This document shows positions 34,285-49,395 of a stretch of 64,000 bases of DNA, piece after piece. The notes below the pieces were generated by a model. The model was not told the origin of the DNA. It searched no databases and saw nothing but the letters and a program-made list of their open reading frames with translations. The position numbers and the translations under genes are program-made. How positions within the stretch are numbered: position 1 is the first letter of the stretch; each line of letters begins with the position of its first letter. This DNA comes from Accumulibacter sp. (lineage in GTDB: Bacteria > Pseudomonadota > Gammaproteobacteria > Burkholderiales > Rhodocyclaceae). Location: NCBI GenBank assembly GCA_017302455.1, contig JAFLDO010000007.1:1-64000 (forward strand), written 5' to 3'.

Positions 34285-35580
34285 ATGAGCCTTGCCGCCG
34301 AATTCAGTTGCCTCAGTGATCACGACCCCGACTCGCTGTCGGCAGACCAGGCACGCGCCTTCATTCGCCGCCAGTTGACGCCGGTGCGCACCCGGGAGCG
34401 CGTGGCGCTGCGCGGCGCTCTCGGGCGGGTGCTCGCCTGCGACCTGCTGGCGCCGTTCAATGTGCCGGGGCACGACAATTCGGCCATGGACGGCTATGCC
34501 GTTCGCCATGCGGACGTCGCCAACGGCGGCAACACCCGCTTGCGCGTACTGGGGACCGCCCTGGCCGGGAAAGCCTTTGCCCAGCCCATCGGAGAAGGTG
34601 AGTGTGTGCGCATCATGACCGGCGCGCCGCCGCCGGTCGGGGCCGATACGGTGGTGGTCCAGGAAGTCGTTGCACTTGACGGCGATCACATCGTCGTGCC
34701 ACCCGGGCAACGTCTCGGCCAGCATATCCGGCGTGCCGGTGAAGATCTCGCTGCCGGCAAGCCGGCGCTGGTTGCCGGGCGCTTGCTTCGCCCGGCCGAG
34801 ATCGGGCTGATCGCTTCGCTCGGTTGTGCCGAGGTCAGCGTCTTCCGGCGCTTGCGTGTCGCGTTCCTGTCCACCGGCGACGAGTTGTGCTCGATCGGCA
34901 CGCCACTCGGCGAGGGTCGGGTCTATGACAGCAACCGCTACACGATCTTCGGGATGCTCACGCGCATGGGCTGCGAGGTGCTTGATCTGGGCGTCGTCCG
35001 CGACGACCCGGCGACGATGGAAGCGGCCTTTCGCGAGGCCGCGGCGGCGGCAGATGTGGTGATCAGCAGCGGCGGCGTTTCGGTTGGCGAGGCCGATTTT
35101 GTCAAGGGGCTGATGGCGGAGCTTGGCGAAGTCCTGTTCTGGAAGATCGCCATGAAGCCGGGTCGCCCGATGGCTTTTGGCCGCCTTCGTGTGGATGGTG
35201 AGGAGATCTGTGGTGAGCGGGGTGGCGCGGCCTGGCTGTTCGGTTTGCCGGGCAATCCGGTGGCGGTCATGGTCACTTTCTATCAGTTCGTTCGTGAGGC
35301 GCTGTACGCGCTGATGGGCGCTGACCCGGTGCCGGTCGTACCCTTGCTGCCGGCGCTGTGCACCGGGGCACTGAAGAAGGTTGCCGGACGGACCGAGTTT
35401 CAACGCGGCATTCTCAGCCTGGTGGATGGGCAGTGGCGCGTCCGCCCGGCGGCTGCGCAGGGCTCGGGTGTGCTGCGCTCGATGGCGGATGCCAACTGCT
35501 TCATCGTCCTCGAGCATGATCGCGGCAACGTCGCCGCCGGCGACCAGGTCGGGGTACAGTTGTTCGACGGGTTGGTCTGA
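34285..35580 (+). CDS. moeA: Molybdopterin molybdenumtransferase MoeA
   Basis: A 431-residue protein. Motifs: GHDNSAMDGYAVR, IMTGAPPPVGADTVV, the STGDEL and YDSNRYTI segments, the catalytic ISSGGVSVGEADFVK, and KPGRPMAFG with LPGNPVAVMVTF. It inserts molybdate into adenylated molybdopterin. Length and domain order are normal. It lies 72 nt after moaA and 61 nt before a channel gene; the trio may be co-transcribed. Confidence 0.93.
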   Translation: MSLAAEFSCLSDHDPDSLSADQARAFIRRQLTPVRTRERVALRGALGRVLACDLLAPFNVPGHDNSAMDGYAVRHADVANGGNTRLRVLGTALAGKAFAQPIGEGECVRIMTGAPPPVGADTVVVQEVVALDGDHIVVPPGQRLGQHIRRAGEDLAAGKPALVAGRLLRPAEIGLIASLGCAEVSVFRRLRVAFLSTGDELCSIGTPLGEGRVYDSNRYTIFGMLTRMGCEVLDLGVVRDDPATMEAAFREAAAAADVVISSGGVSVGEADFVKGLMAELGEVLFWKIAMKPGRPMAFGRLRVDGEEICGERGGAAWLFGLPGNPVAVMVTFYQFVREALYALMGADPVPVVPLLPALCTGALKKVAGRTEFQRGILSLVDGQWRVRPAAAQGSGVLRSMADANCFIVLEHDRGNVAAGDQVGVQLFDGLV

Positions 35581-48644: not shown

Positions 48645-48953
48645 CTGACAGCGAGCAGCCCTGAAGCATGAGTGATCCAGCCCAGCCGCTTCACGTCCTG
48701 GCGGTGGGATGCAGGCAATGCCGGTCGGACAGGCGAGCGCAGCAGTCGGGCGGACTTCTGGCAGGATAGGTGGAGCGAGTCGATTCGTGTTCCAGCCGGA
48801 GGTGCTGCGGTGCACGCCAACGCGCGTGGGTGCCTCAAGCTGCACGTGGTGGTCCGCGACGAAAGGCGGGAGAGGATCGCTGAACCAGTCAGGACCGTCG
48901 TCATCGAAACATCGCGTCACACCTGTTGGACGAAGCCGTTACGTCTTGAAGTC
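48645..48953. other. Intergenic region between radC and ssrA
   Basis: I see no gene, repeat or terminator hairpin that I can support in these 309 bases. The stretch just upstream of the ssrA promoter becomes more AT-rich. Confidence 0.5.
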
Positions 48954-48982
48954 TTGAATTCACGGGCCGGTGGCCGCATAAT
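48954..48982 (+). promoter_or_regulatory. ssrA promoter (sigma70 type)
   Basis: TTGAAT (48954-48959) and CATAAT (48977-48982) are separated by exactly 17 nt. The expected start, near 48989, is at the beginning of the acceptor piece of the tmRNA, not at the coding piece. Confidence 0.6.
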
Positions 48983-48988
48983 GATCCT

Positions 48989-49217
48989 ACGGTCGTAATT
49001 CCGGCAAACCGGAAGCGTTCTGGACGCGGGTTCGATTCCCGCCACCTCCACCACTGCGGGGGTGTACTGGTTTCGACAGGGTGACAGAAGGCGAGCAGGC
49101 GGCCCGAGAGGCGACGGACGTAATCCGCGCAAATCCATAAACGCCAACGATGAGCGTTTCGCACTGGCCGCTTAGGCCTGCTGAGGACGTAGCCGTCCAA
49201 TAAACAGAAAGGCTATC
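48989..49217 (+). ncRNA. ssrA: Transfer-messenger RNA, circularly permuted (two-piece)
   Basis: The tRNA-like 3' end comes first: T-arm stem GCGGG/CCCGC (49026-49042) with loop TTCGATT, acceptor strand CACCTCC (49043-49049) and encoded ACCA (49050-49053). After only 4 nt, the tmRNA 5' end begins at 49058 (GGGGGTGTACTGGTTTCGAC); its first seven bases pair with 49043-49049. CAGAAGGC (49085-49092) pairs with GCGTTCTG (49015-49022) as helix P2 with one mismatch. The tag frame 49143-49175 encodes ANDERFALAA and TAG. A pseudoknot-like fold (GCCT..CTG / CAG..AGGC, about 49176-49213) follows, and no second T-arm is present downstream. The pieces must be separated by processing. The 5' end of the acceptor piece is inferred from the promoter. 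It rescues stalled ribosomes together with SmpB. Confidence 0.92.
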
Positions 49218-49239
49218 GGCGGGGGCTTCGGCCCCCGCC
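49218..49239 (+). terminator. ssrA terminator hairpin
   Basis: A 9-bp stem GGCGGGGGC / GCCCCCGCC closed by a TTCG tetraloop, directly after the tmRNA coding piece. The downstream U tract is weak (GTCATTTGG). Confidence 0.75.
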
Positions 49240-49395
49240 GTCATTTGGACGACAGGCGGCTTACACGCTGATGCGGCGAGTTCTGGTTGCTGGTGGTCGG
49301 GAACGCGGGGAATTTGTGTGCACTGCCGGGAAGCGGGTGCTTCCGCAAACGGCGCTCGCGATCCCGATGCTGGCCGGGCCGGGAGCCTGCCAGGA

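Follow-up and report, generated by a model that had tools for sequence, protein, structure and literature searches.

The stretch of DNA considered here, referred to as the window, comprises 64,000 nucleotides (nt) from Accumulibacter sp., a member of the Rhodocyclaceae (assembly GCA_017302455.1, contig JAFLDO010000007.1, positions 1 to 64,000), and contains at 48989-49242 a circularly permuted ssrA gene of betaproteobacterial type, which encodes a transfer-messenger RNA (tmRNA) in two pieces. ARAGORN predicts a permuted tmRNA at 48961-49266, with the tag ANDERFALAA, and two Rfam models match the same locus: beta_tmRNA (RF01850) at 48940-49243, with 222.4 bits and an E value of 1.6e-70 against a gathering cut-off of 84, and tmRNA_permuted (RF04321), with 161.3 bits and the full model covered. 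Both scores are far beyond chance. A permuted two-piece gene had been claimed in a first-pass annotation of the sequence, which had named a search with the betaproteobacterial two-piece model as a check; the three predictions agree with that claim, and it is very probable that the gene, as predicted, is a working one.

The sequence, ARAGORN and Rfam coincide in placing the acceptor piece before the coding piece (Table 1), and the encoded CCA, the spacer of four bases, the first bases of the coding piece and the tag were all found on sequence reading as the annotation had given them. The third acceptor pair is a G-U pair (G49060-U49047), also present in 39 of 39 short-spacer relatives, and the discriminator is A49050; a G-U third acceptor pair together with an A discriminator constitutes the alanine identity of tmRNA.

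Table 1. Features of the permuted ssrA gene in the window.
Feature	Position	Strand	Basis
Sigma-70 type promoter TTGAAT-17-CATAAT (predicted)	48954..48982	+	Promoter scan; 1 found vs 0.2 expected in shuffles
Acceptor piece, P2 strand included	48989..49053 (5' end approximate)	+	Sequence, Rfam alignment
T-arm of acceptor piece	49026-49042	+	Sequence, Rfam alignment
Acceptor 3' strand CACCTCC	49043-49049	+	Sequence, Rfam alignment
Discriminator A	49050	+	Sequence reading
Encoded CCA	49051-49053	+	Sequence reading
Intervening segment (spacer) CTGC	49054..49057	+	Sequence reading, spacer surveys
Coding piece, starts GGGGGTG (49058-49064)	49058..49216 (3' end approximate)	+	Rfam alignment
Tag frame ANDERFALAA and stop TAG	49143..49175	+	Sequence, ARAGORN
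Ten-pair hairpin with UUCG loop, 3' of coding piece	49217..49240	+	Rfam, fold

The promoter ends 8 bases upstream of the point where pairing begins in the acceptor piece. Taking into account this distance, and that the Rfam match spans the promoter stretch, transcription probably starts at the acceptor piece or within a few bases of it, and therefore little besides the four spacer bases and a 3' tail would need to be removed. The UUCG hairpin, which was not called by the terminator scan, is a possible 3' processing or termination element. On the minus strand, an antisense open reading frame of 85 amino acids (48987-49244) crosses the tmRNA gene and contains GGGGGNRTRVQ, which we take to be a stretch found in spurious annotated proteins opposite tRNA-like genes.

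The genome to which the window belongs (99.99% complete, 3.69% contamination) gave a single place in the search with RF01850, the window locus. The first-pass annotation had held that a one-piece ssrA elsewhere in the genome would argue against its reading; twelve matches to the one-piece tmRNA model (RF00023) were obtained, none of them over the cut-off, and the best, with 32 bits, overlaps the window locus itself. Among the partner genes, SmpB (PF01668, 191.6 bits), the RNA of ribonuclease (RNase) P and RNase PH were found, and the RNase Z model gave no match over the cut-off, with three weak matches below it.

The distance between the two pieces was surveyed at several levels. In the family survey, 60 of 150 genomes have a permuted gene over the cut-off, window included, and 59 of them could be parsed (locus L068 could not, and the below-cut-off locus L070 was left out). 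Nineteen of these genes, that of the window among them, have a 4-nt spacer with an encoded CCA, and the other 40 have spacers of 24-48 nt, in 39 cases without CCA. The 4-nt spacer is present in the own genome and in the three other surveyed genomes of its genus. A scan of named genomes for short spacers, which overlaps the family survey, required a spacer of 0-12 nt, an encoded CCA and the acceptor stem of the window gene; 41 of the 70 stretches recovered were kept as tmRNAs, 29 being rejected by their T-arm and TTCGAC criteria and not by Rfam, through which four of the 41 were also run. Their spacers measure 4 nt in 38 genes, 3 nt in two and 6 nt in one. Of 41 tags read from short-spacer genes, 27, that of the window gene included, are ANDERFALAA, a frame with a hydrophobic AA ending. 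When the same criteria were applied to viral contigs, 33 loci were obtained, including near-copies (23 are distinct), which all match RF04321 and have spacers of 3 nt (six), 4 nt (nine), 5 nt (eight) or 8-12 nt (ten). Spacers of 0-2 nt appeared in none of the 74 loci, 41 bacterial and 33 viral, of these 0-12 nt scans.

In another class of the phylum, presumably Alphaproteobacteria, 183 of 397 were over the cut-off, and 90 loci were taken, the 30 best-scoring (three of the host's order) and 60 picked by hand. The 78 that could be parsed have spacers of 5-126 nt, with two below 10 nt (5 and 6 nt) and 71 of 19-126 nt, a distribution that does not come from a random sample and whose shortest matches are among the 60 hand-picked loci. 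Thus, the statement of the first-pass annotation that such spacers are usually longer holds in 40 of the 59 parsed genes of the family and in 76 of the 78 of the other class, and its interpretation was right as regards the type of gene, the CCA, the spacer and the lack of a one-piece copy. What has to be abandoned is the notion of the short spacer as a peculiarity of this gene, given that all surveyed genomes of the genus have it, as do 38 of the 41 genes of the scan limited to 0-12 nt; the short spacer is shared by a clade.

Uniqueness to the own genome had been suggested by a pattern of CCA plus a spacer of 0-30 nt, which, among 399 genomes of the order, matched only this one; the idea was ruled out, as just 12 of the other 398 belong to the own family, none of them known to have a short spacer, and later scans found many relatives. 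The same pattern was found in none of the 386 genomes of other families in the order. An assembly artefact is also unlikely, since many separate assemblies agree.

Some individual loci of these surveys are worth describing. In the unparsed L068 (genome G421), the acceptor T-arm appears to be deleted, and an assembly error or a decayed gene are possible. L134 is a short-spacer tmRNA of Rhodocyclaceae type in a genome labelled Mycobacteriaceae, probably on a misbinned contig. Hydrogenophaga aromaticivorans carries a permuted tmRNA (L099:3-290) with a 3-nt spacer and the tag ANESTFLKAA, missed by ARAGORN, whose neighbours look phage-like by eye, and one identical in spacer, tag and RF04321 score is present on an IMG/VR contig (L278:2629-2920). 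As for the remaining ARAGORN output for the window, a tRNA-Ala of 94 nt at 34749-34842 had no Rfam match at gathering score; it is probably a false call and was not used.

The constancy of the 4-nt length admits an explanation through inertia from one ancestor, without functional meaning, in which any spacer of at least 3 bases would do. One group of the tmRNA gene tree holds 38 of the 41 short-spacer rows (support 98/98, one long-spacer row included), lengths of 3 and 6 nt do occur in the short-spacer scan, and other spacing is also near-constant, the distance from G1 to the tag being 84-86 nt in 41 genes. However, the 43 distinct short-spacer genes have nine different spacer sequences and, in 40 cases, one length, and short spacers exist outside the main clade, in G426, a Sterolibacterium metagenome-assembled genome, viral contigs and two loci of the other class. 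Inertia is considered less likely than not.

The pairing between the pieces, which the first-pass annotation had traced base by base, was recovered in the Rfam alignment and is accompanied by compensatory changes in relatives. In the window gene all 7 acceptor-stem pairs are standard, as are all 7 of lower P2 (49016-49022 with 49077-49083) and 10 of the 13 of upper P2. In an alignment of 39 distinct short-spacer relatives, built without regard to structure, the paired cells amount to 273/273 in the acceptor stem, 272/273 in lower P2 and 421/502 in upper P2, and pairs changed on both sides number one, two and eight, respectively. When the partners were slid by 1-2 columns as a control, paired cells were 57-79% (acceptor stem), 31-54% (lower P2) and 24-43% (upper P2), and both-side-changed pairs were 0, 0 and 1-3. 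The comparison thus points to an acceptor stem and P2 helices that join both pieces and covary in relatives.

Spacers of both lengths differ in how they would relate to the acceptor stem. In all 40 long spacers of the family, the base preceding the cut is paired with A73, and in 36 of the 40 the pairing extends over the final three spacer bases, opposite A73, C74 and C75, so that the long spacer would continue the acceptor helix. In the short class, 42 of the 43 distinct genes show no contiguous pairing between spacer and 3' end. Judging by predicted pairing, the family contains two classes, one with spacers of 24-48 nt prolonging the acceptor stem, almost always without CCA, and another with about 4 nt, CCA and an open loop. 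With respect to Escherichia coli RNase P, sections of Zhu et al. 2022 (PMC9433436) report that pairing of the leader with RCCA slows formation of the active complex; that A(-2) and C(-4) promote cutting; that G(-2) carries a penalty if -1 is U or G, and none if it is C or A, provided that C(-4) is present; and that U(-1) is optimal, with GG as the slowest dinucleotide ending and A(-2)U(-1) among the best. Short spacers have C(-4) in 41 of 41 genes, and their base at -2 is a purine in 43 of 43. A purine(-2) is also found in 72 of the 78 loci of the other class, 39 of which end in A(-2)U(-1), and in 20 of the 23 distinct viral genes, with spacers of 3-12 nt.

It is proposed, as the probable route, that the permuted ssrA precursor is matured by an RNase P cut at 49057/49058 and exonuclease trimming of CUGC. 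Thus, a single transcript, beginning at or near the acceptor piece as the promoter suggests, would form an acceptor stem closed, according to sequence and folding, by the eight-base loop A73-C74-C75-A76-C-U-G-C. A cut by RNase P between C49057 and G49058 would give the coding piece its 5' end and leave the acceptor piece with a free 3' end extending four bases past the CCA, and exonucleases such as RNase PH would then remove CUGC. The two RNAs would remain paired via the acceptor stem and P2, for which covariation argues, and the resulting two-piece RNA, from what is known of the family, would be charged with alanine and act with SmpB in trans-translation. The spacer could be regarded as a minimal RNase P leader, with C at -4, a purine at -2 and an unpaired 3' end. 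The first-pass annotation had confined maturation to the tetranucleotide CTGC, and any removal must indeed fall there.

Several points weigh against this route. The cutting by RNase P of so tight a closed loop remains a prediction. Of the 20 distinct viral genes with a spacer long enough to include -4, only 7 have C there, and GG ends 18 of the 43 short spacers, with U(-1) in only one of the 43; the letters of the spacer would therefore suit RNase P only in part, C(-4) and purine(-2) speaking for it and the rare U(-1) and frequent GG against it. Moreover, C(-4) and purine(-2) may have been inherited rather than selected, because the short-spacer rows belong so largely to one clade. Differences in RNase P RNA were also considered as an explanation of the spacer classes and discarded: 28 of 30 genomes gave the RNA, 25 of these 28 matched the motif expression, and no consistent difference appeared. 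Its L15 loop reads GGC in 21 of the 25 genomes (G000:C56:14990-15362, which is L231, and L232-L258). GGU is the textbook motif of L15 for binding the 3' end. L15 gives no separate support, as it is alike in both spacer classes and has GGC instead of GGU. Finally, the fold of the single precursor, in its minimum-energy and centroid versions, shows the acceptor stem and the T-arm and lacks P2, so that P2 rests on comparison and not on energy.

This last absence is also what would be expected if the gene were a pseudogene or a single uncut hairpin. It is, however, the only tmRNA gene found in an almost complete genome that has smpB, and its pairing and tag are conserved in relatives, which makes such an explanation very improbable. 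A different possibility is that the loop is first opened by some other endonuclease (RNase E, RNase III or an RNase Z-like enzyme), RNase P only trimming afterwards. The participation of RNase P together with tRNase Z has been proposed for permuted tmRNA in a passage of one review (PMC3985003) and for permuted tRNAs in a passage of another (PMC3978253), and the weak RNase Z matches mentioned above, all below the cut-off, would be in line with it; we consider this order of events rather unlikely, and the initial cut by RNase P is preferred.

The form of the gene fits the tmRNA gene tree and is largely scattered on the RpoB tree. When one-piece genes are included in the former (79 rows, 190 columns), the three forms need 4 changes vs 33.4 in shuffles, the one-piece split having a support of 89/80, below the strict mark. 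The RpoB tree, based on this single gene, used 64 of 80 genomes (13 had no match and three only pieces); on it, the form labels need 24 changes vs 27.4 in shuffles, a value as low in 16 of 200. Taken by itself, the short form is clustered beyond chance (10 changes vs 14.2, as low in 1 of 500), due in part to four rows of one genus. Many genomes in this comparison are drafts; among the 31 with 50 contigs or fewer, one-piece vs permuted needs 9 changes vs about 9.2 in shuffles; the approximately unbiased test rejects a one-piece clade (p 1.7e-9). G278, with a long spacer, and G471, with a one-piece gene, are sisters on the RpoB tree, and their upstream flank aligns over 1,326 bases (78%), with only 37 bases aligned over the tmRNA gene. 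Among the thirteen permuted/one-piece pairs compared, a long stretch of flank is common to two, G278 being a member of each, and short stretches in other places are common to another two; in the remaining nine, alignment is restricted to parts of the gene.

The surroundings of the gene also vary. Its nearest relatives in the gene tree are from Accumulibacter genomes, which points to Candidatus Accumulibacter as the host, and the flank downstream of the window gene aligns in 10 of the 46 short-spacer loci compared (from L055-L138), mostly Accumulibacter. In the other 36, whose flanks are unrelated or cut short, alignment to window 48953-49246 is limited to the gene and its promoter, even within Accumulibacter. 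The short-spacer tmRNA gene seems to change place. Long-spacer permuted tmRNAs are carried by the Cupriavidus plasmid NZ_CP017753.1 (L392:2870-3187, tag ANDKRFALAA) and the conjugative Pandoraea plasmid NZ_CP011518.2 (L393:1924-2278, tag GKNDAFYYEAA as read by ARAGORN).

Given the scatter of forms on the RpoB tree and the occurrence of permuted copies on plasmids and viral contigs, it is suggested that the gene forms may move laterally between species. Alternatively, an ancestor could have held both one-piece and permuted genes, with descendants losing one or the other, and a one-piece gene does exist elsewhere in 2 of the 60 permuted genomes (a third over-cut-off match, in G495, lies on the permuted gene itself). 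Both are, however, drafts of 110-170 contigs, and the one-piece copy of G514, an extreme outlier on the gene tree, looks like contamination. Differential loss would furthermore require many parallel losses, and it leaves the permuted genes of plasmids and viral contigs aside; it seems unlikely, and lateral exchange explains the patchy distribution best. A broader and more tentative proposal, for which the odds are below even, is that the Rhodocyclaceae use two alternative two-piece precursors with different routes of maturation. In one, the short loop is open and RNase P would be the only enzyme needed to cut it; in the other, the 3' end would be shielded from RNase P within a long sealed helix, which another factor would have to open first and whose product would be completed by CCA addition. 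On this view, both precursors and the one-piece gene would replace each other from species to species via plasmids and phages, and the form would be a mobile allele instead of a marker of lineage.

With respect to known systems, the window gene is an ordinary member by identity and a variant by its precursor. The beta_tmRNA model is matched in whole (1-331), from the promoter stretch to the last hairpin, with the same order and helices; in its consensus, 28 positions separate the coding piece from the CCA position, vs 4 here, where the CCA is encoded. This group is reportedly, after Sharkady and Williams in 2004, the third two-piece lineage. RF04321 is likewise matched as a permuted tmRNA with an intervening sequence, which in the window has only 4 nt. 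According to part of PMC11915505, which counts 11,946 permuted sequences, the intervening sequence of permuted tmRNA is absent from the mature molecule. The tmRNAs of Alphaproteobacteria (Caulobacter, Orientia, Hodgkinia) also consist of two pieces from one precursor, cleavage being predicted in the case of the window; two pieces were demonstrated by Northern blot in Orientia (excerpt of PMC7335160), and in Hodgkinia separation of the pieces, with a 129-nt spacer, was seen in reads (excerpt of PMC6581868). The loci of the other class resemble the window gene in their encoded CCA (67 of the 78 parsed) and differ in spacer length, as described above. A further likeness is offered by the permuted tRNA genes known from algae and Thermofilum pendens, in which a short intervening sequence closes the acceptor loop; one from T. 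pendens has a single nucleotide there, whose removal, in the relevant passage of PMC3978253, remains to be clarified. The halves of permuted tRNAs are ligated, and the pieces of tmRNA are not. Literature searches, which did not cover Sharkady and Williams 2004 or Mao et al. 2009, found no account of the short spacer or of swapping between forms.

The loss of intervening segments in permuted RNAs is still mostly inferred, and a spacer of four bases narrows the problem to one predicted bond. Close relatives offer a natural pair of substrates, the open loop and the sealed helix. If species do exchange gene forms, a component of the ribosome-rescue machinery would be swappable, which bears on the origin and persistence of split RNAs.
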